From an uncultured Saprospirales bacterium (GTDB taxonomy: Bacteria; Bacteroidota; Bacteroidia; Chitinophagales; Saprospiraceae), in the NCBI GenBank assembly GCA_913061325.1, contig CAJXUU010000016.1, positions 1 through 35,588 of the forward strand: DNA of 35,588 nt. Reading direction: 5' to 3'. The position numbers and the translations under genes were made by a program. A model generated the notes under the pieces. That model did not search any database and was not told the origin of the DNA. It saw only the letters and a list, made by a program, of their open reading frames with translations. How positions within the stretch are numbered: position 1 is the stretch's first letter; the number at the start of each line of letters is the position of its first letter. This document shows positions 4,225-19,509 of the stretch, piece by piece.

Positions 4225-7200
4225 ATGAATAATAATAATCAAATAAAATTAAAAGGCGTCTTTGCTGTTATTCTTGGGACATTTCTAATGTTAATTAGTT
4301 TGGATGTTTTGGCACAAGAGGCATATAAAAACCACTCTGTCCCCAGCCCAACAGCAAGTAATATAGTAGCATCGGACTATTTTCCTTTGGACTACTATAC
4401 AGGAAGAGCACAAATTAATATTCCTTTGTATAATATTTCTTCGAAAGGCATGAATATGCCTATTAGTCTTTCATATAATTCTGGTGGAGTAAGAGTAAAT
4501 GATCCAAATGGCTGGGTAGGTCAAAATTGGAATTTAAATGTAGGAGGAGTAATTACAAGAGAAGTTAAAGGTTCTCCAGATGATCATGCACCATTGATTC
4601 CTGATGCTGGAATATCAATTCCTGGGGTTTATAGTTATTTTAATTTAGTCACGGGAATAGGAATAGACGCAAATTCACCTGAGTTTATAGAAGAAAACGT
4701 TAATACATTTGATAAATTATCTGAATTTATCTATCCAAAGACAATTACGGGGCAATTTGAAACAGAACCAGATATTTTTAGTTTTAATTTCATGGGCTAT
4801 AGCGGTAAATTTTTCATGGGGATTGATGGTGAATGGAAAGTAATAAGTGAGAATAATGTGAAAATAGAATTAAATATCCTTGATCCAGAAAATTGGACAA
4901 CATCCCTATTTGATGCTACATTTCTTGGCAATAAATTATTTAAATCATTATTTGGTTTTAAAATTATTGATGAATATGGGAATAAATATACTTTTGGGTT
5001 TAATGAAGAAGCGATAGAATTTTCAATCCCCTATTTTAGCCAGAATGCTCCAAATACACATTGGACAGCCAATTCATGGTATTTGACAAAAGTAGAAAAT
5101 GTAAATGATGAAGTCTTATTCGACCTCCACTATAAGAGAGGATATTATATTGCAAATATAAGTATTAATGATTTCAGTAAGGAAGATTTTTGTAAAACGT
5201 CCTCAGGATGGGAAAGTAGTGGTACATCCACCAATAAACATGAAGCCAGAGGATTTCTTATTTCTCCCTCTTATTTAGATCAAATTACTACTTTTTACAA
5301 TGAGACAGTAGACTTCATCAGCGAAGATTCAGATCAATTAAATTACAAAAGTGATTCTTATTATTACGATTTTGCACTTAATGGTAATTATTTACCCTAT
5401 TTGCAACTTCCTCCTTATACAGCCTATACATACCCTAGCACAGATGATGATGTGCTATATAAATTAAAATGGAAAAAACTGTCAGAAATTGATGTAAAAA
5501 TAAATGGGGTTGACAATAGAAATGTTTCCTTTTCTTACAACGACAACGTTAATGAAAGGCTTTTTTTAGAAGATGTAACAATAAAGGAAAATAGTCAATC
5601 AGCAGCATCTGCGGCGAACAGTTTAAAATATAAATTTGATTATACTAATAAATCGGATATCCCTGATTTTCTAAGTGCAAAAATTGATCATTTTGGTTAC
5701 CAAATAGGAAGTAATTATTTTCTTTCAAGTGATGCTTACGATTTCAATTTACTTAAACTGAACCATTTCAATTCCAGAGAACCCAATTTAAATAGAACAA
5801 AAAATGGTAGTTTAGAAAAGATAACATTTCCAACTGGGGGCTATACAAAATTTCATTATGAGCTAAATAATTATTCTTCTCTTGTCTCTGATAACAGGCA
5901 ATCAATATTAAATGAGACGGGTTCTACTTGTGGACTTAGAGTTAGTAAAGTTGAAATGTTTGACACCCCAGATTCAACCACTCCAACAAGCACAAGAGAA
6001 ATATTTTATACAAAAGATTATGCTCCGAATAGTCAAAATAGTATTAGTTCTGGTGTGTTAGCATTAAAACCAAAATATGTTTGGATAGATTATCTAGAAC
6101 CATCAATAAATAATCCAAATGGTGGATACAAATCTTCTGTTTTTTCTAATAATATAATGACTCCATTAGGCAATATGTTTGAAAGTCATATTGGATATGA
6201 GGAGGTAACTGAAGTGTACGATAACAAAAGTTATATAACGTACAAGTATGATTCTCATAAAACGGTAAAAGATGAATTGCCAATATCAACTTTCGAACTA
6301 AATGAATTTAGTCCATATTCCAAATTTACCGATAAGAGTTTTTTGCGAGGCAAACAAACATGTAAATCAATTTACGATAGCGATGAAACAATTTTAGAGA
6401 AAGTATCATCGAGTTATAGAGAAGATATTAGATTAAATAATCAATCTGATAAGTATGACATTACTTCTAATGCGTTTATTCGATCCAAATGCTTTAATCC
6501 GAGTGATTATATCCCTAATGGAAATGTTTTAAAGATTTATTATTTCAAAGATTATATAAGAGAAATAAAACATGAAAATTTTAGAAACGGCAGTTTAGAA
6601 AAGTTAGAAACATATAATTATGATATTTTAACTCTTAATACAAACGAGTATAAATTTTTAAATAATAAAATTATTTCAGATGGTGAAAAATCTAAAGTTT
6701 ATACATACACTTATCCAAAAGACAATACAGAAACAAGCGTATTAGCTGATAAGCATATGGTAAACTTACCTATTTCGACTAGTGTAAATGGAGGTGCAGG
6801 AGGAGGTTCGAAAATTGAATTTAGTAGTGAGACACATATTCTTCCTAGGTATTTCTCTAGTCAAAATGACGACGGTTCTTGGAAATTAATTCAAGAGTTG
6901 AAATACGATAATTTTGACGATACTTATCCAGATAAAATAAAAGAAATTGGAAAAGCTGGAGATATCGAGATGACTTGGTCTTCAGGAGGAAAAATAGGTT
7001 TGTTAGATAAGCTTTCTTATTTTGGAAGAGAATGGGATTACGGTTATAATGATTTGCGTCAATTGACAAGTTCACAGGATTATAATGAAATCGAATCTAC
7101 ATTTCTATATGATGGACTTGGAAGATTAACATATTCATCCTCAAATAATGGTCGACTTTCAAATACATATTCATATGAATATGGCCTTATTGACGGAGGA

Positions 7201-10200
7201 ATAAATTTGAAAACAGATAATTTTCAAGGCTCTGATGGTACTGGTTATTTAACAGAAATGATTTTTGATGGATTGGGTCGAGAAATAACCAGCACCAAAG
7301 TTGGTTATTTAGATGGTGGAGGTGACTATGTTACAACTAAAACTTATGATGCTCTAGGTAGACTTAAGGAAGTAACAGATCCTGGAACAGGAGGGACGAC
7401 GGTTAACACGTACGAATCATCTCCTCTAAACGTATTAGAATCTGTAATGCCAGCTGGATCACCTTCCCCTATTGAGTTTGATAACTTAATAGAAGAAAAT
7501 AATTTTGTAATAAAAACTACAGATGAGGATGGAATAGAAACTAAATCTTTTACAGATATATTTGGAAGGAATACTAAAAATGTAGACGGAATGGGATTTG
7601 AAACCGTCATGGAATACAATGATAGAGATCAAGTGCTTACTATAGATCCCCCTGGAGATAGTGGATCTAATTATGTATATACATATTTTCCAGATGGTAA
7701 ATTAGAGGTTAAAACAATTCCAGATAAAGGAGATTATGTTTATACATATAATGAATATGATCAAATAGAAACAGAAACACTTCCAAATGAGAAAATTATT
7801 ACGAACAATTATCATGGGACGTATAATGATTTTCTTACGAGCCGCGAAATGGATGGTCACCTATTAGAAGAATATATTCCAATAGATTTATCCTATGTGA
7901 AAGATTTTATCGGAGAAGAAAGTTATTCTATTCATTGGGGAAGTGAAAGCGAAAATATTCTAGGGCAAAGACATGTAATTTCTCATACTTCGATAGATCA
8001 AGATTTTGGGCGATCGTTAGCTCAAAACATATCTACTTTGGATGGAGAAATCATCATGGAAATGGGATATGATGATTTAGGGAATATGAAATCCCAAGCT
8101 GCAACTGTTACCGCTTTTAATAATAGTAAATTGGCAAGTGAATCTTGGACCTTTCAAAAAGGTATAAGAGAAAAAAACTATGGTTTTTTAGCGGGCCAGT
8201 TATCCGGTGGAACTAAAAAGGAATATAACGGTAATGATTGGCTAGTAAATAAAAAATTAGGTAGCATACTTCAGGAAATCAAATATGAGTATAATCCTAG
8301 AGGATGGTTAAATAAAATAAACTCTGTTGGGGATGTATCAAGTGGAGGAAATATAAAATGTAAAGAATTAGAGCCTCCTGAAATACCTGACTTCGATTGT
8401 GAAAATCTATTGGATTTGATCAATACGTTTATCATACATTATGATTGTGAAGAATTAGCCAATGGGAATCCTACTGGAATTGAAATAGAAGTATCAAGTC
8501 AATCTTTTGAAAATGGATTGTTAGATGGGATTACAATAGAATCGATTGAGATACCTATTAATGGAGGCGCTTCTTCAGAATCGATTTTGCCAGATGAGTT
8601 TGCCTTTAATCTTAATGATATCACAACATTAGATGATGTCTCCTTGGGTATTTATAATCTATTGTTAGATTGTATTTTACAAAATCCAGATTTACTTCCT
8701 ACACTTGAAGATCTTATTAATCAAGGATTGATTGATAATTTAACTCCAATTATAGAAGGGTATCAAGAACTTTCTGAGCCAGAAGAACCACCAACGAGTA
8801 CTCCAGCAAGCCCTCCAGTGTTTGGAATGGAGATATCTTATTATGGCGCAAACGAAAAGTTAGAGGCAATCTCACGGTATAATGGTAATATTTCTTGGAT
8901 GAAGTGGAAAACAATAGGAGACCATGTACATACTTATGGATTCACTTATGATGATAACAATAGATTGACCAAGGCTTTATATGGAGAAATTAGTCTTGAA
9001 ACTGAGTGCGAGCTTATAAAAACGGATAAGTATAGTGTGCCAGATATAAGTTATGATGAATTGGGTAATATTCAATCTGTAATGAGAAAAGGATTACTTG
9101 GTTCAACAAACAATACGAGTCCTGCATATGGCCCCATTGATGCATTAACTTACATATATCCCAATGATAGTCCAAATATCGTACAATCGGTAATTGATGC
9201 CTCTGAAATAGACAAAGGATTTAAAGGAGGCTCATCGATATACACTCATGATGGCACTGGAAATATGAACTATGCATCAAATAGAAGTGTAAGTACTGTT
9301 TATAGTTTCAATGACCTACCAATAAGCATGAAAACTCCGAAAGGAAAAGTGTTAAACTTCTATACCTCATCAGGCATAAAGTTAAAGTCTATATTGTTGT
9401 CAACAGCTAATAATGGATTCATACCAAAAATTACTAATTATATTGCAAATCAAGAATACGAGAATAATGAATTAAAAGCTATATATTTCCGTGAAGGTAG
9501 AGCGACGTATGAAGTGGATAATAATGAATTTCTTGAATATTATATAAAAGATCATTTGGGAAACACAAGAGTAAGAATAGCTGATAAAAACGGGGACAAT
9601 AATGTGTTTTATGATGTGAACAACCCTGAAGAAGATGAGGTAATGGCGTCTCACCACTACTATCCTTTTGGTATGGAATGGGATCTGCCCCAATATGATC
9701 AAAGCGGGAACTCGATTGCTAGTACAGGTGTTAAATCTAAGTATACTTATAATGGAAAAGAGTATCTAGATGATTTAGATATTAATCTTCACTATTACGG
9801 ATTTAGAGTATATGACCCCGCTATAGGAAGGTTTACATCCGTTGATCCAATTGCTGAAGAATTTGCTTTTGTGAGTGGGTTTAATTATGCAGAGAATGAA
9901 CCAATCGCAAATATTGATTTGCATGGATTGCAAGCAGTTAATAGTACAGCTAATTCATTTCATTCTGGACAAGGTTCGAAGTTTCAAAAGTCTCACCCTA
10001 AAACTGCAGCTGCTCTAGCTGCAGCGCCTGCAGTTGCATTAGGAGCTGGAATTGCTATTGGTTCAGGAACAGTAGGGGTCGGGTTGATGGCCCTAAGGAC
10101 TCTTGTTTCAAGAACCGTTACTGCTGTTGGTTCGGGAATTACTTCTGCAACATCAACTTTAAGTGGGATGATGAAAGCTGCTCCTTCATCTTTACAAAGT

Positions 10201-10620
10201 GGGGCAAAATCATTGATTGCTGGGACTATGGGTGAAAGAGCTGTAGCTGTTGGAACTGACATTGTTTCTCAAACAGTTGTTAATGCTGCAACAGGAGCGG
10301 AATTTAATTTTGCATCAACTGTATCTGCGGCTATAATGCCAAATGCTTACCTTACTCAAGGTTTTATAGCTGGAGCTGTTGAGGTAACTGATGTAGGTAG
10401 AGAAGGAGGAGGACACAAGTTGGGCTTGGATTTTAATCCTTATAGAGGATTAGTAGGTGCAGCTTTTGGTAAAGCGGGAGGAACATTAGGTAACGGTATA
10501 GGAAAGACTATAAATAGTACTTCAAGAAACGGAGGAGTTTCAATGGCATCATTTTTGAAAAACATGCCAAGTTTAGTAACAACAGCATCAAGAGAAATAA
10601 TCAATGATGAAATCAAGTAA
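4225..10620 (+). CDS. Secreted RHS/YD-repeat protein with variable C-terminal tip (candidate polymorphic toxin)
   Basis: Signal peptide (MNNNNQIKLKGVFAVILGTFLMLISLDVLAQ), many YD-type repeats (YDGLGRLTYSS, YDALGRLKEVTDP), RHS core YIKDHLGNTRVRIAD...HHYYPFGMEW...YTYNGKEYLDDLDINLHYYGFRVYDPAIGRFTSVDPIAEEFAFVSGFNYAENEPIANIDLHGL, then a divergent ~230-aa tip. Confidence 0.93.
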   Translation: MNNNNQIKLKGVFAVILGTFLMLISLDVLAQEAYKNHSVPSPTASNIVASDYFPLDYYTGRAQINIPLYNISSKGMNMPISLSYNSGGVRVNDPNGWVGQNWNLNVGGVITREVKGSPDDHAPLIPDAGISIPGVYSYFNLVTGIGIDANSPEFIEENVNTFDKLSEFIYPKTITGQFETEPDIFSFNFMGYSGKFFMGIDGEWKVISENNVKIELNILDPENWTTSLFDATFLGNKLFKSLFGFKIIDEYGNKYTFGFNEEAIEFSIPYFSQNAPNTHWTANSWYLTKVENVNDEVLFDLHYKRGYYIANISINDFSKEDFCKTSSGWESSGTSTNKHEARGFLISPSYLDQITTFYNETVDFISEDSDQLNYKSDSYYYDFALNGNYLPYLQLPPYTAYTYPSTDDDVLYKLKWKKLSEIDVKINGVDNRNVSFSYNDNVNERLFLEDVTIKENSQSAASAANSLKYKFDYTNKSDIPDFLSAKIDHFGYQIGSNYFLSSDAYDFNLLKLNHFNSREPNLNRTKNGSLEKITFPTGGYTKFHYELNNYSSLVSDNRQSILNETGSTCGLRVSKVEMFDTPDSTTPTSTREIFYTKDYAPNSQNSISSGVLALKPKYVWIDYLEPSINNPNGGYKSSVFSNNIMTPLGNMFESHIGYEEVTEVYDNKSYITYKYDSHKTVKDELPISTFELNEFSPYSKFTDKSFLRGKQTCKSIYDSDETILEKVSSSYREDIRLNNQSDKYDITSNAFIRSKCFNPSDYIPNGNVLKIYYFKDYIREIKHENFRNGSLEKLETYNYDILTLNTNEYKFLNNKIISDGEKSKVYTYTYPKDNTETSVLADKHMVNLPISTSVNGGAGGGSKIEFSSETHILPRYFSSQNDDGSWKLIQELKYDNFDDTYPDKIKEIGKAGDIEMTWSSGGKIGLLDKLSYFGREWDYGYNDLRQLTSSQDYNEIESTFLYDGLGRLTYSSSNNGRLSNTYSYEYGLIDGGINLKTDNFQGSDGTGYLTEMIFDGLGREITSTKVGYLDGGGDYVTTKTYDALGRLKEVTDPGTGGTTVNTYESSPLNVLESVMPAGSPSPIEFDNLIEENNFVIKTTDEDGIETKSFTDIFGRNTKNVDGMGFETVMEYNDRDQVLTIDPPGDSGSNYVYTYFPDGKLEVKTIPDKGDYVYTYNEYDQIETETLPNEKIITNNYHGTYNDFLTSREMDGHLLEEYIPIDLSYVKDFIGEESYSIHWGSESENILGQRHVISHTSIDQDFGRSLAQNISTLDGEIIMEMGYDDLGNMKSQAATVTAFNNSKLASESWTFQKGIREKNYGFLAGQLSGGTKKEYNGNDWLVNKKLGSILQEIKYEYNPRGWLNKINSVGDVSSGGNIKCKELEPPEIPDFDCENLLDLINTFIIHYDCEELANGNPTGIEIEVSSQSFENGLLDGITIESIEIPINGGASSESILPDEFAFNLNDITTLDDVSLGIYNLLLDCILQNPDLLPTLEDLINQGLIDNLTPIIEGYQELSEPEEPPTSTPASPPVFGMEISYYGANEKLEAISRYNGNISWMKWKTIGDHVHTYGFTYDDNNRLTKALYGEISLETECELIKTDKYSVPDISYDELGNIQSVMRKGLLGSTNNTSPAYGPIDALTYIYPNDSPNIVQSVIDASEIDKGFKGGSSIYTHDGTGNMNYASNRSVSTVYSFNDLPISMKTPKGKVLNFYTSSGIKLKSILLSTANNGFIPKITNYIANQEYENNELKAIYFREGRATYEVDNNEFLEYYIKDHLGNTRVRIADKNGDNNVFYDVNNPEEDEVMASHHYYPFGMEWDLPQYDQSGNSIASTGVKSKYTYNGKEYLDDLDINLHYYGFRVYDPAIGRFTSVDPIAEEFAFVSGFNYAENEPIANIDLHGLQAVNSTANSFHSGQGSKFQKSHPKTAAALAAAPAVALGAGIAIGSGTVGVGLMALRTLVSRTVTAVGSGITSATSTLSGMMKAAPSSLQSGAKSLIAGTMGERAVAVGTDIVSQTVVNAATGAEFNFASTVSAAIMPNAYLTQGFIAGAVEVTDVGREGGGHKLGLDFNPYRGLVGAAFGKAGGTLGNGIGKTINSTSRNGGVSMASFLKNMPSLVTTASREIINDEIK

Positions 10621-11080
10621 ATTTGCTTATTACGCAAGTAGATTAATATTTGCAGGGTGTTTTTTGTATCTATGTTATTTAGGCTTTGAAATAACTTTTG
10701 CAAGTCCTAAGAGGTTTGAGAATAATTTTGCTAAATTTTCCATTGTAAATGGTCAATTTGATAAAATTCAACGCTCAGGAATTGGTCGTACTATTCGTTC
10801 AACTTTTACATATACTGTAGAAGGGAAGCGTTATTTTAAGAAGTTTGATAAGACGATTCCTTGTAGAGATAGTGACTTGGATAACGTACAAATGAGAAAT
10901 GAAATCATAAGTTTTAATTTTCCAGTAGCTATTTCTAATTTAGATCCCAACTTAGCAATTTCTCTAATTAGAGAAAACGATTTTAAAGAATTGAATCTTG
11001 AATTCCCTGACAGCCTTCGTTATACTTATGATAAGTATTTTAATTGTACTTGGTGGGAACAAATACGTAGCGATGATTAA
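10604..11080 (+). CDS. Putative membrane-anchored immunity protein for the RHS tip
   Basis: Start overlaps the RHS stop (ATGATGAAATCAAGTAA). 158 aa with an N-terminal TM segment (LIFAGCFLYLCYLGFEITF). Position directly after an RHS C-terminus. Confidence 0.6.
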   Translation: MMKSSKFAYYASRLIFAGCFLYLCYLGFEITFASPKRFENNFAKFSIVNGQFDKIQRSGIGRTIRSTFTYTVEGKRYFKKFDKTIPCRDSDLDNVQMRNEIISFNFPVAISNLDPNLAISLIRENDFKELNLEFPDSLRYTYDKYFNCTWWEQIRSDD

Positions 11081-11120
11081 ACGCTCAAGGTGTAATATAA
11101 TTATGAAATTAGAAATTATA

Positions 11121-11150
11121 GCCTCAGAGAAATCTGAGGCTTTTGTTTTT
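11121..11150 (+). terminator. Rho-independent terminator of RHS/immunity unit 1
   Basis: GCCTCAGAgaaaTCTGAGGC followed by TTTTGTTTTT. Confidence 0.8.
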
Positions 11151-11154
11151 TATA

Positions 11155-11505
11155 TTACACAGCAAGTTTCTTTTGGAGATCGGCTTTCATAATAAAAGCG
11201 TCAAGAAACTCTTTCACCAATTTCTTTTTCGGTTCGGGAAGTTGTTCTACTTTTCGGAATTGATCTAATAGTACTTTATCAGAAATACTTTGAGCTGCAT
11301 TTTCATCAATCGACCCATTCATCAAGTAATCAGCAGAAATAGTTAAAGCGTTTGCAAGTTTTGTGAGTACTTCTGATGTTGGTTTATTTTCGCCTCTTTC
11401 ATATCTGGAAATATTGGTTACATGCACACCTACTAATTTGGCTAATGCACTCTGCGATAATCCTTTATTTGCTCTTTCTAGTTTTAGTCTATCTTTAAAT
11501 TCCAT
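11155..11505 (-). CDS. XRE-family HTH transcriptional regulator
   Basis: MEFKDRLKLERANKGLSQSALAKLVGVHVTNISRYERGENKPTSEVLTKLANAL is a canonical HTH_3 domain. Confidence 0.92.
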   Translation of the reverse strand: MEFKDRLKLERANKGLSQSALAKLVGVHVTNISRYERGENKPTSEVLTKLANALTISADYLMNGSIDENAAQSISDKVLLDQFRKVEQLPEPKKKLVKEFLDAFIMKADLQKKLAV

Positions 11506-11522
11506 GCTAACTATGCTTTGTT

Positions 11523-11650
11523 TGCTTACGTAAATATAGCTCTAATGCTTAGTTAAAGCAAATTGTTGTAAGCATGAAGGCTTATTTAGAAAGAACTATG
11601 CTTGGTTATATGAAACTAAGTTTGCTATATTTGTGAGCAGACTTGCTTAC
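11523..11650. promoter_or_regulatory. Divergent promoter/operator region between XRE regulator and primase-helicase
   Basis: TGCTTAC at 11523-11529 and 11644-11650, inverted GTAAGCA at 11568-11574, palindrome TGCTTagttaAAGCA at 11546-11560. TATATTTG at 11626-11633 fits the Bacteroidota TAnnTTTG -7 element. Confidence 0.5.
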
Positions 11651-11680
11651 AATCAATAAAAGTGTTAAAGTTTCATAATT

Positions 11681-14185
11681 ATGGAAATCGCTCAAATCAA
11701 AGCCCAACTCCCTATCCAAACAGTACTTACTCACTACAATCTTACTCCCGATCGAAACAACCGCCTGTGCTGTCCTTGGCATAGTGATAAAACTCCAAGT
11801 CTCCAGATCTATCCAAAGACAAATACTTGGACATGCTTCAGCAGTAAATGTGAGGCAGGCAGTGGCGACGCGATAGAAATGATCCAACAGATGGAGAAAT
11901 GCACTAAACATGAAGCACTGAAAAAGGCAAAGGATCTACTCGGGCATACAACGATCAAGAAGCAAGAGACGAAACCACAAGAGTGCTTAAGCGAGATCTT
12001 TACCAAACTAAAAGCGAATTACAAGAGATCGTCCAAAGCTCAAGTGTATGCAAAGAGTAGAATGATAGAAGGTGAAGAGCTTGGATATAATGGAGGAAGC
12101 TGGCAACACTTAAAACAATGTATCATCTTCCCACTCAGAAACAAAGAAGGTGAGATCGTAAGTCTATATGGAAGATCGATAATAGGCACAGATAAAAACA
12201 AGCATTACTATCTAAAGAATAGATCAGGAGTTTATCCAAATCATCCAACTGAAGAAACAGAAATCCTAACACTGACAGAATCAATAATAGATAGTGTACA
12301 TGTGCCAGAAATAAAGTTGGCCATGTATGGCACAAATGGATTAACTACCGAACACATCGTGTCAATCCAAAGTCTAGAGAAATTGCAAGAAATCATCTTG
12401 TTCTTTGATGGAGATGAAGCAGGAGATTCAGCAATACAGAAGGTAGGAAAGAAACTACACGAAATAAGACCAGGAATAAAAGTGAGCTATGTAGAAACTC
12501 CGAGAGATACAGATATCAATAGTTTAGTAGTGAATCATCCAGATACTTACAAAGAACTTATCAAAGACTTAACAGATAATAGAATTGAATTTTTTCTTTC
12601 AACTGAAAAAACAATTGAAGGAAAAAAGGAAACTGAAATAATAGAATCCAAATTAGATACAAGTAACAAGCACAATCTACGCTACAAAACTACCACAGCT
12701 ACATATAGCATCAAAGGCGGCATCACAAAGAATAGTCTGGATGCTATGAAAGTAACTTTAGTTATAGAGATAGAAGGCAGCCACAGGAAGAGCAGAAATA
12801 AGCTTGATCTATACGAAGACAAACAAGTAGAGAAGGTTAGCAGAGAAGCATCTGAAAAGCTCAATATAGAAGCCTCAGAAATAGAAAAGGATCTGAATCG
12901 ATTAACTGACTTACTGGATGAATATAGAGAGCAAGACAAGAAAGAAAAAATGCCTGTAGTGCAACTACTGAATTTAAAAGAAAGAGAGCAATGCTTAACC
13001 TTCTTGAAGAAACCCGACCTAATAAAGAGCATCGATAAATTAATAGAGAAATCTGGTGTAATTGGAGAAGAAAGCAACAGGATAAACTTGTTTTGTATAG
13101 CTGCATCACACAAGATGCCTCAGACATTACATGCACTCGTACAGGGAAGCTCAGGAAGTGGAAAGACACATCTACTTAAACAAATCACTAATCTGATGCC
13201 TGTAGAAAATGTAATCAGATTAACCAGAGTTACAGAATCAAGTTTTTACAATTATGGAGAAACAGAACTGAGAGGAAAGCTGATTGTAATAGAAGATTAT
13301 GATGGACTAAAAGAAGAAGCAGAATATGCATTTAGAGAGCTGCAAAGTAATGAGGAGATCATAAGTAGTACAAGTGTAAAGGATGAAAGAAGCGGAGAAA
13401 TAAAAGCCATGATCAGAAAGGTAAAAGGTCCTATTGGTAGTCTATCCGCAACTACAAGAAGTGAAATCTATGAAGACAATCTAAGTAGGTGTTTTGTGAT
13501 AGCAGTAGACGAAAGCAGCCAGCAAACCCACAGAATTATCAAATACCAAAACCAAGTATCAGCAGGAATAATCGACAAAGCCAAACAAGAGAAAGTAGTA
13601 AGATTCTTAGGTAACTGCATGAGGTTATTAAAGCCAATAGACGTTGTGAATCCATATGCTGCAAAGTTGAATCTACCACCAGAAGCTTTTAAAATCAGAA
13701 GACTCAACAGCAACTTCCAAGCCTTCATAAGACAGATCACATTAATCAATCAATACCAAAGGAAGACGGATGCGAAAGGTCGATTAATCACAGAATTAGA
13801 AGATATAAAGACAGCTGTAAATATCATGTTTGACAGTATCATACTGAAGATAGACGAGCTTGATGGAGGCTTACGATTGTTCTATGAAAGATTGAAAACC
13901 TACATCATAGAAAAAGCAGAACAGAACGAAGAGAAACCAAGTTTACAAGACTTTATCCAGCGAGAAATAAGGCACAATCTAAGAATCAGTAAAACGAGTT
14001 TGCAACGATATATAAGTGACTTGGTGACTCTAGAATACATCCAACAATCAGGAGGTCATCACAATAGAGGCTACAAATACAAGATTACGTATTGGGATGA
14101 TATCGGAAAGATTAGAGCAGAAATCAAGAACTATCTATATCAACAAATAGAGAAAATGAGTGAGCCTGTATTGTCGAAAGTATAA
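11681..14185 (+). CDS. CHC2 zinc-finger/TOPRIM primase fused to a P-loop helicase-like domain
   Basis: CHC2-type motif (CCPWHSDKTPSLQIYPKTNTWTCFSSKC), TOPRIM-like LFFDGDEAGDSA, Walker A GSSGSGKTHLL, Walker B-like KLIVIEDYDGL. 834 aa. Confidence 0.85.
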   Translation: MEIAQIKAQLPIQTVLTHYNLTPDRNNRLCCPWHSDKTPSLQIYPKTNTWTCFSSKCEAGSGDAIEMIQQMEKCTKHEALKKAKDLLGHTTIKKQETKPQECLSEIFTKLKANYKRSSKAQVYAKSRMIEGEELGYNGGSWQHLKQCIIFPLRNKEGEIVSLYGRSIIGTDKNKHYYLKNRSGVYPNHPTEETEILTLTESIIDSVHVPEIKLAMYGTNGLTTEHIVSIQSLEKLQEIILFFDGDEAGDSAIQKVGKKLHEIRPGIKVSYVETPRDTDINSLVVNHPDTYKELIKDLTDNRIEFFLSTEKTIEGKKETEIIESKLDTSNKHNLRYKTTTATYSIKGGITKNSLDAMKVTLVIEIEGSHRKSRNKLDLYEDKQVEKVSREASEKLNIEASEIEKDLNRLTDLLDEYREQDKKEKMPVVQLLNLKEREQCLTFLKKPDLIKSIDKLIEKSGVIGEESNRINLFCIAASHKMPQTLHALVQGSSGSGKTHLLKQITNLMPVENVIRLTRVTESSFYNYGETELRGKLIVIEDYDGLKEEAEYAFRELQSNEEIISSTSVKDERSGEIKAMIRKVKGPIGSLSATTRSEIYEDNLSRCFVIAVDESSQQTHRIIKYQNQVSAGIIDKAKQEKVVRFLGNCMRLLKPIDVVNPYAAKLNLPPEAFKIRRLNSNFQAFIRQITLINQYQRKTDAKGRLITELEDIKTAVNIMFDSIILKIDELDGGLRLFYERLKTYIIEKAEQNEEKPSLQDFIQREIRHNLRISKTSLQRYISDLVTLEYIQQSGGHHNRGYKYKITYWDDIGKIRAEIKNYLYQQIEKMSEPVLSKV

Positions 14186-14187
14186 GT

Positions 14188-14271
14188 TGGCGACCCATAT
14201 GCTTGGGTCACCAGATGGGTCACTCTATCAACTCAATATCAATGCTTTAGGCGCTGGCGACCCACGACCCA
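14188..14271. repeat. Cluster of direct and inverted TGGCGACCCA / TGGGTCACCA repeats between primase-helicase and recombinases
   Basis: TGGCGACCCA at 14188-14197 and 14255-14264; inverted TGGGTCACCA at 14204-14213; TGGGTCAC at 14216-14223; CGACCCA at 14265-14271. Confidence 0.8.
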
Positions 14272-14304
14272 AGAAAGTACTAAGGGGGAAATAAAAAATA
14301 AGGC

Positions 14305-15174
14305 ATGAGAAAACTAGAAATTATCCATCAATTAGAGACTTATTTAAATCGATTAGGCTACGGAGAAAAGACCATCATTATTATCAAAAGATGTTGTCTA
14401 GAATTTATGACTAGATTAGAAATAGAACAAGTTGAAGCTATCCAAGACATCACATCTGCAGACATTATCGATCACTACAATTACCTCAACGAAAGACCCA
14501 ACAAAATCACTCAGGGAGGACTATCAGGCAAATACATCGATCATCACATCTATAGCATGAAGATCTTCTTTGAGTGGCAACAAACCATCCAATCGATAGA
14601 AGGAAATCCAATGAGTCCGCTGACGTTCCCAAAAGGAGAAAGCAGACCGATGCAGATCCTAACACAATCAGAAATCCACCAGCTCTACGAAGTAACAGAA
14701 ACATGGAAAGAAAAGACTCTACTAAGTCTGTATTATGGTTGTGGTTTACGAAAATCAGAAGGTGAATCATTGGATATTAAAGACGTACATTTTAGAAGTG
14801 GAATCTTGTATGTGAGAAAGGGGAAAGGAAGTAAAAGACGAGCTGTACCCATGAGTAAGAAAGTAGCGGAACCAATCTATCAATACATCCATGAAGAACG
14901 ACAGAATCCCAATCAACTGAAAGCTTTAGTAATTAATAAAAAGGATGGAAGAATGAGAGGACAAACCTATGGACTACTACTTAAAAAGATGATGCTCAAA
15001 ACAGAAATCAATAAGGATATTACTCTTCATTGTCTTCGTCACTCGATTGCTACACACTTACTAGAATCTGGAATGAGAATAGAAAAGATACAAGACTTCT
15101 TAGGTCATAAACATCTAGAATCAACCATGAGATATACAAGAGTAAGCAAACAATTATTACATGGAACTAGCTGA
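14305..15174 (+). CDS. Tyrosine recombinase/integrase (first of tandem pair)
   Basis: Phage-integrase catalytic motifs: YYGCGLRKSEGESLDIKDV, HCLRHSIATHLLESGMRIEKIQDFLGHKHLESTMRYTRV. Confidence 0.92.
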   Translation: MRKLEIIHQLETYLNRLGYGEKTIIIIKRCCLEFMTRLEIEQVEAIQDITSADIIDHYNYLNERPNKITQGGLSGKYIDHHIYSMKIFFEWQQTIQSIEGNPMSPLTFPKGESRPMQILTQSEIHQLYEVTETWKEKTLLSLYYGCGLRKSEGESLDIKDVHFRSGILYVRKGKGSKRRAVPMSKKVAEPIYQYIHEERQNPNQLKALVINKKDGRMRGQTYGLLLKKMMLKTEINKDITLHCLRHSIATHLLESGMRIEKIQDFLGHKHLESTMRYTRVSKQLLHGTS

Positions 15175-16018
15175 CTATCTAAGATCAAAACATAGTGAGA
15201 AATCTGTCAGAAGATACTTACATGACATCAAGCAATATCAAACTTACAATGCTAATCATGAGACTGCAATACACAAAGATATCATGGATTACATTGGTTC
15301 TTTGAGACGTACAGAAATCACATCACAAACGATACTAACCACACTTTACAGCATCCGGAAATATTATGATTATCTGATGAAGTCCGGGCAAAGAGAGGAT
15401 CATCCTTGTAGGTTTATTAAGCTGAGAGATGGCAGACAAAAAGACATCCAATTACAAGACTTATTTACTACTGCAGAATTGGAAAAGCTACTCGATAGAA
15501 AAGAACGATATCCCAGGAATAAACTCAAGAATCAAATCATCATAAGTCTCTTAATCTATCAAGCTCTAAGCAATGGGGGAATCACAAGAATAGAACTATC
15601 AGACGTCAACTTAGAAGCGGCAGAAATCTATATCAGACAAAGTTCAACTCTTAATGAAAGAACTTTAAAACTAAGATCTAACCAAATCATGATGCTCTAC
15701 AAATACATCCATGAAGTACGTCTAAATCTGATCAAAGAAGAAACTGATATCCTTATACTAACAATGAGAGGAACAGCGGAAAAGGGTGAAGGAATCCATT
15801 ATCTAACAGAGACTTTAAGAAAGAAATATCCATCTAGAAAACTGAATCCTACGACTATCAGACAAAGTGTAATTACCAATCTACTGAAAGAAGGAAAAGA
15901 CCTTAGAATAGTCCAAGCTTTTGCTGGCCATAAACATCCAAGTACTACTGAAAAATACAAGCAAACAGACGTTGAGGAATTAAAAATCGAGGTGTTGAAA
16001 TATCATCCTTTGGGGTAA
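15161..16018 (+). CDS. Tyrosine recombinase-like protein (second of tandem pair, divergent catalytic region)
   Basis: Overlaps the first recombinase by 14 nt. C-terminus TTIRQSVITNLLKEGKDLRIVQAFAGHKHPSTTEKYKQ resembles integrase, but the expected HxLR box reads TIRQS and the first Arg box reads LSNGGITRIELSDV. Confidence 0.8.
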   Translation: MELADYLRSKHSEKSVRRYLHDIKQYQTYNANHETAIHKDIMDYIGSLRRTEITSQTILTTLYSIRKYYDYLMKSGQREDHPCRFIKLRDGRQKDIQLQDLFTTAELEKLLDRKERYPRNKLKNQIIISLLIYQALSNGGITRIELSDVNLEAAEIYIRQSSTLNERTLKLRSNQIMMLYKYIHEVRLNLIKEETDILILTMRGTAEKGEGIHYLTETLRKKYPSRKLNPTTIRQSVITNLLKEGKDLRIVQAFAGHKHPSTTEKYKQTDVEELKIEVLKYHPLG

Positions 16019-16178
16019 TGGAGACGAAAAAAATAAGATATCTATTACTTTTTTAGATATCTAAATTAAAAATGGTTTTTTTTAAAAGGACATAGAGAAG
16101 ACCACTGCCTGAAATTAAGGCTGTAGAAATGATATCAGATACTATGTCTAAGAAGAAATCCATTGATGTAAAGATAGT

Positions 16179-16421
16179 TTAAAAATCAGATAAAACCTGG
16201 ATTAATATATGATCTTTAGCTAGTTCAGAATCACCAAATTTTAAAGTAGGAATATGATCTTCGCCTCTACGTTTTCTTGCTTTAGAAGTAGATACAGTCT
16301 CGATATCCAATAATCTAAATATATGACCATCAGGAATAAACTGTTCATCCTCTGTGTAACAAAGTACATCAGCTTCAGGATTTAGTTTTTCTAGTTCTGC
16401 GATTAACTCTTTAACCTTCAT
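16179..16421 (-). CDS. Small hypothetical protein, phage/mobile-element type
   Basis: MKVKELIAELEKLNPEADVLCYTEDEQF... resembles small phage proteins beginning MxVxELIxxLxxLxPxAxV. Confidence 0.55.
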   Translation of the reverse strand: MKVKELIAELEKLNPEADVLCYTEDEQFIPDGHIFRLLDIETVSTSKARKRRGEDHIPTLKFGDSELAKDHILIQVLSDF

Positions 16422-16576
16422 AGTTTATTGTATTTACTATTACTCATCGATAAATGTGCCATATGTATTTTGCTGACATTAAGTCATATATGCAAGCTTA
16501 GAGATGACAGTGTGACTATTGGTTGTAATAAAAAGAAGTTGCTTGCTCCTTTGTCGCAAATTTATAGTTCTTCGTA

Positions 16577-17170
16577 TCTCCGCTAAAAAGCTTCGACACT
16601 CAGGCAGTGAAGCGGCGTTCGTCGTGACTCAGTCGCACACATACAGCGCCATACTCTCCAAAGTCGAGTAACAGGAGCTTCCTACGTCAGCACCTTTGTC
16701 ACAGTATGCGTCTCCTTCGGACTCCTCACAGTCTGTTTTACTGTCTGCGACAGACTATGCTTCCACTACTCCGCCAACTGGCGGATTCTTTACAGTACGC
16801 TACGCCATAGACTGCCACATCCATCACAGCCACATATTTGGCGGACTGCGCTCCGCCCTCGGCTGCATGAATCTTTTCTATATTGGTTCCGCTAAAGCTT
16901 CACCCTGTTTTAATCATATCATTTGCTGCAAGAGCAGCAACTTCGCTTTCGAGCCTCTACGGGTCGGCTCTCCCAGCTCACACCTCGGTTGGTATCCGCA
17001 GTCGTCCGCCACTTCCATTCCTTCCAGTCTTTCCCGTTATGTAGCCTTGTTCCTTGTTAACGACAACTTGGATGTTGACCTTCCGCCCTTCGGTTGGATC
17101 CTCAATTATTAAAGATAAAGCCGCTACGCTACCACGCTCAAATGCCTCGCTTCATCTTTAATAATCGAGG
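16577..17170. other. GC-rich, hairpin-dense noncoding segment (candidate structured RNA or recombination/replication site)
   Basis: Composition shift from AT-rich flanks. Hairpins GTCTG-CGA-CAGAC (16743-16755), CCGCCAACTGGCGG (16771-16784), GGCGGA-ctgcgc-TCCGCC (16840-16857), TTGCTGC-AAGA-GCAGCAA (16923-16940), GAGCC...GGCTC (16951-16970), and long IR 17100-17116/17154-17170. Confidence 0.6.
17100..17170. repeat. Inverted repeat CCTCAATTATTAAAGAT ... ATCTTTAATAATCGAGG
   Basis: 17-nt arms with one mismatch, enclosing a 37-nt spacer. Confidence 0.85.
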
Positions 17171-17488
17171 AATAGACCTTTTTTCTTTCAATTGAAATCA
17201 GTTGAGAAAGGTCTATTGAAAAGAGGTGTGCTGCACAAATTAAAATATAAATCATCATAAATTACAGACAATTAGTCAGTACAGAAAGACGATTAAAAAA
17301 AGCAATTTGTACAGCTCAAAACAATCATTTAAACTTGCTTAGAATTAATGAAACTGCGAGATGCAAGAAATAATAGTAGTAATAATAACGGTTTGTGCTC
17401 CTTTGGTATACCAAGAATATGTTCGTCGATCTGAATTAAAACAAAAAGACTAATTTTTTCTTTTTTCAATTGAAAGAAAAAATAGGTC
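17171..17488. repeat. Pair of inverted palindrome-containing repeats (TTTCAATTGAAA core)
   Basis: AATAGACCTTTTTTCTTTCAATTGAAA (17171-17197) is the near reverse complement of TTTCAATTGAAAGAAAAAATAGGTC (17464-17488). Also a perfect 11-nt hairpin AATAGACCTTT (17171-17181)/AAAGGTCTATT (17207-17217). Confidence 0.75.
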
Positions 17489-17556
17489 ATAAAAGATTAT
17501 CTTTGAATTAGACGAAAAGTTGTCTAATGGAGTGAGGATGTTGATGGAAAAGTTGT

Positions 17557-18333
17557 GCAGGTAATAAAGAGTATACTTATAATGGTAAGGAATTTCAAGA
17601 TGAGCTAGGGATAGATTTACACTACTATGGTTACCGAATGTACGATCCTGCAATAGGACGGTTTACAGGGGTAGATCCAATTGCCGAACAGTATGCTTTT
17701 GTGAGTGGATTTAATTATGCTGAGAATGATCCTGTGGCACATATAGATCTTCATGGTCTTCAAAAGGCAGATTATGAGATGTTCCCAAAAGTGAATCTAA
17801 CAGATAAATTTAAAAGCTTATGGGGCGATTTTACTACAGCACTTGGATTTGGCGGTGATGATGCCCCAACGGCTACTGATGTTGGAAATGCCTTGACAGC
17901 AGTTGTGACTATAGATGGTAATGATATAGATAGAGCTAAAAGTAGCATATCTGAACTCGGAGGATCATTACAGCATTATGGAGATGCAATGAAAGAAACA
18001 AGCCAAGAAGGAATGGGCGTCAGTATTATGCTTGCGGGCACCCCAGCGAGTCCATTATCCCCAACTATCGCGAAAGCATCTGGAATTACAGGTCTTATTG
18101 GGTCAGGGATGGTTCTTGCCGGTGAATATATGGAGAACGGGTCTATTAAAAATGAAACATTAGGAAATTTTCTTATTGAGCAAACGACAAGAGGGGCCTC
18201 TAAAAAACTTAAAGGAGTGATTAATGAAACTAGCATACTTGGCCAGACAGGGAACACAGTTATGAACAATATTTTGAAATCAAGTGTTGACGGAGCCAAA
18301 ATTGCTCTTGACAAGGAACTTAAAGATGACTAA
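17557..18333 (+). pseudogene. Orphan, 5'-truncated RHS C-terminal tip (RHS core end plus distinct candidate toxin domain)
   Basis: In-frame from GNKEYTYNGKEFQDELGIDLHYYGYRMYDPAIGRFTGVDPIAEQYAFVSGFNYAENDPVAHIDLHGL, homologous to the end of the 4225-10620 RHS core. In-frame TGA just upstream (about 17542) and no RHS body. First in-frame ATG at 17638. Confidence 0.88.
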
Positions 18334-18890: not shown

Positions 18891-18920
18891 CCAATATGAA
18901 TTTAAGAAATTGAAAGTATA

Positions 18921-18950
18921 GCCTCAGAGAGATCTGGGGCTTTTGTTATT
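18921..18950 (+). terminator. Terminator of orphan RHS tip/immunity unit, homologous to 11121-11150
   Basis: GCCTCAGAgagaTCTGGGGCTTTTGTTATT, nearly identical to the terminator after the first RHS/immunity unit. Confidence 0.75.
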
Positions 18951-19037
18951 TAGCGAAAGCAACTTTAGTTCTAAAGTTCTGAAGAACGTTATCAAGTACA
19001 AAAATTAGATGAGAACGACCTTCTTGAGAAAGCTTTT

Positions 19038-19075
19038 GGATACCAGATTAAGCAAACAATTATTATATGGGACTA
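19038..19075 (+). pseudogene. Relic of the tyrosine recombinase 3' end
   Basis: TAAGCAAACAATTATTAtATGGgACTA (from 19049) matches TAAGCAAACAATTATTAcATGGaACTA at the recombinase gene end (about 15143-15169): 17 exact nt, 25/27 overall. Confidence 0.5.
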
Positions 19076-19509
19076 TCGGATCTTGGTCTAGTGGCATGAA
19101 ATTTATACACCTTATTAAAAATGGGAAGGTAATTGGGTATTATCAGTTGGTAAAGAAGTAATTTTCTATTTTTTATCGAACTGTTTCTAGGTTTATGATT
19201 TAACTACTGCATATTTAAAACTCTTCGCACAAGCATTAGAATGTCGCATTCGGCAAATAAAGGGTCGATTTCTTTACCATTTTTATCATGTCCACAAAAC
19301 CCCTGTAAATAGGAACTTGAAATAGTAAGAAAACTCATTAAAGTTATCAAAGTCAAGTATCTGTGATTTTCTTACCTGATTTGTTCATATCTAAAAAAAG
19401 GATTCCATCCTATAGACGGACACAAAGTTTTCGTGGTTTGCTGTTGGTATGTTGAAAGTGAAATCTATAATGTTGAATGATGATATTCATTCTGAATAAA
19501 TCTAAAAAT

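Follow-up and report, generated by a model that had tools for sequence, protein, structure and literature searches.

A covarying GC-rich fold as a candidate single-stranded DNA origin in an apparently undescribed mobile element of RHS genes

Single-stranded DNA (ssDNA) origins, in which hairpins are read by a primase, are known from phages with G4-type origins and from the ssi sites of RSF1010. In another field, the gain of RHS tips and the build-up of orphan tips have so far mostly been attributed to loose cassettes that undergo homologous recombination with each other. The locus described here touches both subjects. It lies in a draft genome of 6.0 Mb from an uncultured Saprospirales bacterium, on contig C16, which is the window of this work, i.e., the whole stretch of 35,588 nucleotides that was analysed; both the genes of this genome and its best-matching relatives indicate Bacteroidota. 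Judged from gene order and junctions, a GC-rich folded noncoding block of this window is, with good support, one part only of an element of approximately 7.8 kb that inserts into RHS genes. The element is apparently undescribed; no description of it was found in the open-access literature. An earlier note, made from the sequence alone, had seen in the block a large structured RNA, an attC-like folded recombination substrate or an origin. We consider that its bottom strand may serve as an ssDNA origin or primase-loading site.

The block differs in composition from its surroundings, as had been claimed before: GC content is 0.507 at 16577-17170, the limits first proposed, and 0.498 at 16537-17120, against 0.351 in the whole window. 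The segment is thus real, and the actual unit is slightly wider than those limits, from about 16537 to 17171. The segment is noncoding and dense in hairpins, and its + strand is C-rich; each of the hairpins listed earlier was found, and the arms of the long inverted repeat said to close the segment are complementary.

16537..17120, no strand: GC-rich folded noncoding block, GC 0.50 vs 0.35, with homologous copies in C269, G020 and G001 and further ones that the fold model detects in other genera
16604..16624, no strand: GCAGTGAAGCGGCGTTCGTCG, exact match in the G564 and G020 blocks
16743-16755: hairpin GTCTGCGACAGAC
16771-16784: hairpin CCGCCAACTGGCGG
16840-16857: hairpin GGCGGACTGCGCTCCGCC
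16923-16940: hairpin TTGCTGCAAGAGCAGCAA
16951-16970: hairpin GAGCC...GGCTC
17099..17171 (arms 17099-17121/17149-17171), no strand: closing inverted repeat, 23-nt arms, 91% complementary

Within the feature at 16604..16624, GGCGTTCGTC is also present in pAT2, a plasmid of Aureibacter tunicatorum (Cytophagales). When both strands were folded, as the earlier note had proposed, the folding went beyond that of dinucleotide shuffles, the bottom strand showing this the more clearly: as DNA, z is -3.3 for the bottom and -1.6 for the top strand, and as RNA about -4.0 and -3.1, respectively. The Rfam scan of the window returned no family at the gathering threshold, in agreement with the former judgement by eye, and permissive scans gave sub-threshold chance matches only; in 8 related loci no family reached the gathering threshold either. 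Conserved coding in the open reading frame at 16696-17112 had been named as a finding that would speak against a noncoding segment. This frame exceeds its expected length somewhat (p = 0.03, mononucleotide shuffles), has no Pfam match and is disrupted by indels and stops in a 74%-identical copy of the block on contig C269; a protein-coding block was rejected, since the reading frame is not kept in this homologue. Copies at other RHS loci of the genome, which the earlier note had suggested looking for, were not found: the sole related copy is that on C269, at a non-RHS locus, where it adjoins a toxin-antitoxin pair and a DEAD-box helicase.

The evidence that carries the present reading comes from relatives. 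With the G575 block as the starting query, matches were obtained in 45 of the 79 genomes of its genus, some of them short, and fold statistics were established on 33 aligned copies from this one genus. Here a fold of 41 pairs leaves 99.6% of cells paired; 11 pairs have changed on both sides, with 79 doubly changed cells, where cells are sequences and not independent events, and related copies inflate the counts. Covariation was 0.185 compared with 0.068 in shuffles, was reached by 0 of 500 shuffles and was lost when the pairing partners were slid, and several pairs occur as three pair types (e.g., C-G, U-A, and G-C). As far as aligned sequences can tell, the fold is well supported as conserved in the relatives, under a maintained structural constraint. 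Both homologues and strong compensatory change, for which the earlier note had advised a search, exist in relatives and coding potential is not conserved, so that its reading of the segment is not refuted.

The nature of the folded molecule was examined on the 38 pairs that were agreed upon by the foldings of both strands. These pairs comprise 1245 Watson-Crick cells, 2 G-T and 5 A-C; counted as departures from the commonest pair, there are 79 Watson-Crick, 2 G-T and 5 A-C. RNase P of the same genus, for which the Rfam structure was used after a directly predicted consensus fold had failed, has 12% G-T and 315 G-T vs 73 A-C cells, and since its divergence is greater (63% vs 76% identity) and its stems are less GC-rich, it serves as a comparison and not as a matched control. 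The best-defined apical hairpin reads GC-TNC-GC or GC-TNNC-GC on the top strand in 33 of 33 copies, which on the bottom strand is GC-GNA-GC or GC-GNNA-GC, again in 33/33, and all four bases occur at N. A GNA or GNNA loop with GC closing is the published rule for ultra-stable DNA mini-hairpins (PMC4686876), and the apical loop of the relatives matches it exactly. Bottom-strand hairpins of the GNA/GNNA type number 119, the shuffle maximum being 98, and the window block has 4 where 1.3 are expected. Base pairing and loops, as read from alignments, point to selection on ssDNA rather than on RNA. The block is a strongly covarying noncoding fold that is absent from Rfam, and if the selection on ssDNA is true, it would be a rare case of covariation reporting DNA structure.

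Across genera, DNA similarity alone was tried and abandoned, as the blocks are too diverged, and fold models were used in its place. The models R1 and R2 come from one genus, R3 was broadened with matches from other genera, and the window was never included; their E-values are rough. R1 and R3 detect the domain in G564, G057, G156, G775, G700, and pAT2. In the 35.6-kb window the best match of R3 is at 16690-16832 (E 0.012, the next best 3.4), directly followed by a match of R2 at 16835-17011, where E is 0.0055 over 1.8 kb, pairing is poor and many pairs are lost.

16690..16832, + strand: probable 5' domain, apparently a homologue of the (Y)TGTCAC...GCAGCTCCC...GCTGCCC domain in related blocks, R3 match
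16835..17011, + strand: candidate 3' domain, weak, best R2 match in 15900-17700

An inverted block was found 3' of the second recombinase gene (T2, see below) in G775 and G700. In G775 there are two blocks per element, in opposite orientation, that flank the operon (L133 6911-7015, + strand, and 13287-13393, - strand), one of them before the repressor gene.

The element that carries the block extends over 9740-17569 of the window, close in size to other copies, and consists of an in-frame RHS tip, an RstR-family repressor, a DnaG-like primase, two tyrosine recombinases, the GC-rich block and a conserved right end. The labels recombinases and orphan tip, given before to the neighbours of the block, proved correct and are the key to understanding it.

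4225..10620, + strand: RHS gene with TIGR03696 RHS core; from 9740 onward, the tip supplied by the element
9740..9755, + strand: left junction core AGTATACTTATAATGG, in the Y-T-Y-N-G-K-E codons of the RHS gene, where homology with 17570 has its left edge
10604..11080, + strand: small gene 3' of the tip, putative immunity gene by position only
11155..11505, - strand: RstR-family helix-turn-helix repressor, NF041951 above cut-off
11681..14185, + strand: DnaG-like primase with CHC2 zinc finger, Toprim and Walker-type motif GSSGSGKT
14305..15174, + strand: tyrosine recombinase T1, aligned catalytic residues GLR, HxLRH, GH and Y present
15161..16018, + strand: tyrosine recombinase T2, without the first catalytic Arg and without the His of HxxR
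16179..16421, - strand: small open reading frame in the slot of toxin-antitoxin cargo of other copies
17457..17567, + strand: right end of the element, TTTTTTCAATTGAAA, TATCTTTG (-7-like) and GTTGTGCAG, a motif that recurs before orphan RHS tips at other loci
17570..17585, + strand: right junction core, the same 16 bases AGTATACTTATAATGG, start of the orphan tip
17570..18333, + strand: orphan (displaced) RHS tip, TIGR03696, 76% identical to 9740-9926

At 9740 and 17570 alike, homology between the main tip and the orphan tip begins on its left side with the core AGTATACTTATAATGG, and the limits of the window element therefore are 9740-17569. Tandem copies in relatives have periods of 8741 (G775), 7652 (G700), and 7618 bp (G564), and in pAT2 two copies, annotated as RHS, hypothetical protein, helix-turn-helix protein, CHC2 protein and two recombinases, lie 8169 bp apart and are identical over the 6.9 kb compared. 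L135 has ...GACAAGCTC|TACGAGTGTTCTAACCAC as its left junction and ...GCGTAGAACAT|TACGAG... at the right ones, where the same edge is followed by differing tips; pAT2 has ...GGCTATCGT|TATGGATTTAACGGC on the left and ...AATTATGGG|TATGGATT... on the right. One-base edges of tandem copies, as expected of site-specific integration, were found in L135 (7652 bp), L141 (7618 bp), and pAT2 (8169 bp), and the insertion sites fall in conserved RHS codons, i.e., Y-x-Y-N/G..., Y-E-x-S-N-H-L-G-N or S-V-D-P-L. Because insertion is base-exact within such codons, the old tip becomes an orphan; the element would supply an in-frame tip of its own and orphan the old one, as the reading frames to either side imply.

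A primase match at E <= 1e-60 was obtained in 24 of the 398 genomes of the order, and in other genomes repressor, primase, T1, and T2 stand in identical order. The module, present in more than 20 related genomes and in pAT2, typically adjoins RHS tips, and the loci that were fetched contain RHS core or tip, repressor, primase, T1, T2, a noncoding stretch and an orphan RHS tip, several of their contigs stopping before one side or the other of the element. In many independent elements, that of pAT2 among them, a noncoding GC-rich block separates T2 from the orphan tip or from the contig end. The scan of named genomes with T1 gave no relative, the phage collection contained no relative of the primase, and a simple search for the start motif found three copies only.

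From these observations an origin or priming site emerges as the best guess, because the block would act single-stranded and the element's own primase is its obvious reader. We regard the chances that the bottom strand of the block is an ssDNA origin or primase-loading site of the excised element as evenly balanced. T1, with T2 as its catalytically degenerate partner, would release the element in circular form; once single-stranded, the bottom strand of the block would fold into mini-hairpins, and the DnaG-like primase of the element would recognise them as an origin or primer-loading site. The circle could then replicate and insert into another RHS gene. In its full form, the proposal that these are self-replicating integrative elements in at least two Bacteroidota orders, dedicated to swapping RHS tips, whose origin is a GNA/GNNA bottom-strand fold read by their own DnaG-like primase, is tentative and invites rather more doubt than belief. 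The presence of a primase gene in the element would count for an origin, and the two locally examined elements that have no block (L092 with a truncated primase, L094 with none detected) fit it as a joint loss of block and primase. Among the three candidates named before, a folded DNA origin or primase site is thus favoured here, RNA less so, and an attC-like site appears weaker. Several observations weigh against an origin. In the relatives, the bottom strand reaches the strongest z-scores as RNA (mean -3.3), not as DNA; the window copy fits the fold models weakly; the blocks of genus g22 are inverted and G775 has two per element, which an origin tolerates and does not predict; and the joint loss comprises two decayed elements only.

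The main rival is that the block encodes a large structured RNA, on the bottom or the top strand, e.g., one that regulates replication or the primase. It stays under consideration because the energy z-scores are best for bottom-strand RNA, both in the relatives and in the window; the fold is conserved and covarying, and its orientation varies among genera, as that of a free gene could. However, there is almost no tolerance of G-U and no strand asymmetry of G-U and A-C, unlike in RNase P of the same genus, the loop obeys the rule of DNA mini-hairpins, its common GCCA form not being a GNRA loop, and no Rfam family matches, so that we judge an RNA unlikely.

Less probable still is a recombination substrate or accessory site, either an attC-like bottom-strand fold or a place where T1 and T2 bind to synapse the ends. 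The block adjoins two tyrosine recombinases, its bottom strand folds as in attC, and solitary copies follow toxin-antitoxin cassettes. An attC-like crossover inside the block was rejected, as the junctions are located in RHS codons; since these lie several hundred bases away, outside the block and with the right-end motif in between, the attC-like reading is the weaker one. At approximately 0.3-0.6 kb and with many hairpins the block is far bigger than attC, the right-end motifs with the CAATTG palindrome are better candidates for arm sites, and against the IntI-type integrase model TIGR02249 the two recombinases score 115 and 45 bits, below the cut-off of 265. That the block is functionless for the element, either a repeat rich in hairpins or degenerate cargo that the variable slot tolerates, was already disfavoured and is very improbable: copies of the palindrome TCCGCCAACTGGCGGA are scattered through many relatives, block sequences diverge quickly from genus to genus and solitary degenerate copies exist, but compensatory change runs across 33 sequences and the same domain was recovered in several genera and in Aureibacter, which shows a maintained constraint.

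Other features of the element accompany those that support the proposed origin. The reading frames of T1 and T2 overlap. In 7 of 7 aligned copies (window, L081, L082, L091, L092, L094, and L095), T2 has neither the His of HxxR nor the first catalytic Arg, while T1 keeps them; the residues suggest that the pair is probably composed of one active and one regulatory recombinase. Toxin-antitoxin pairs are located just before the block, or after T2 or its remnant (L127, L138, L002, L003, L005, L006, and L083), and solitary block copies start directly after an antitoxin or toxin stop codon. Relatives of another class (L092 9924-12425, L094 9974-12006, and L095) have defence-like genes (RloA/RloB-like, restriction-like), assigned by eye from translations, either 3' of T2 or in the interval from T2 to the RHS tip. 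The palindrome TCCGCCAACTGGCGGA itself is found inside the window block at 16770-16785.

The right end follows a conserved order: T-rich CAATTG palindrome, TATCTTTG/TATCTTAG box, often GTTCTTTGAG, GTGCAG, and RHS core. The box resembles the -7 promoter element of Bacteroidota and GTTCTTTGA resembles a boxA of rRNA; at right ends the -7-like box and the often present boxA-like GTTCTTTGAG are directed toward the orphan tip. An outward promoter for the orphaned tip and immunity gene, by which the latter would stay expressed, is a possible idea. Past the orphan tip, an RHS-tip terminator repeat and a T1-like remnant are present at 18907-18952 and 19040-19080, and the patch listed second below suggests a decayed further copy of the element.

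17179..17240, + strand: second copy of the right-end motif, apparently decayed, CAATTGAAA ... GGTGTGCTGCAC (repeats D1 and I3, and sequence)
18955..19080, + strand: short remnants with similarity to the primase and to the end of T1 (repeats D3 and D7)

Compared with described systems, the element shares with G4-type and RSF1010 ssi origins several conserved hairpins on one DNA strand and a primase gene in the same replicon, but the block is much larger and of other sequence, the enzyme is DnaG-like with CHC2 and Toprim, the carrier is an integrative element, and replication here is what the proposal supposes. As in the integron attC, the bottom strand folds, tyrosine recombinases adjoin and the cargo includes toxin-antitoxin genes; unlike in attC, the crossover is outside the block, both recombinases stay below the cut-off for integron integrases and the block is far larger. 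The SCCmec replication module also belongs to an integrative cassette with its own primase, and there a helicase is encoded and the priming site lies downstream of the operon, yet the recombinases are others, the primase is based on an A-family polymerase and toxin genes are not targeted (PMC7581432). The rAID arrays of Bacteroidales, also in Bacteroidota, likewise combine a tyrosine recombinase with genes for toxins and immunity and with intergenic motifs that are conserved, but they are arrays of orphan immunity genes, and a primase or RHS insertion is not described in the part consulted (PMC12247911). Closest to the insertion site are Rhs orphan tips and tip exchange, where displaced tips stand 3' of the RHS gene and each begins in the conserved core (PMC3967940, PMC3482391). 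Known tip exchange is homologous recombination between tips (PMC3967940, PMC3482391), whereas here a recombinase-encoding element with base-exact ends lies between them; an element that inserts exactly at the tip junction with a tip of its own offers a testable, enzyme-driven route to the diversification of Bacteroidota toxins.
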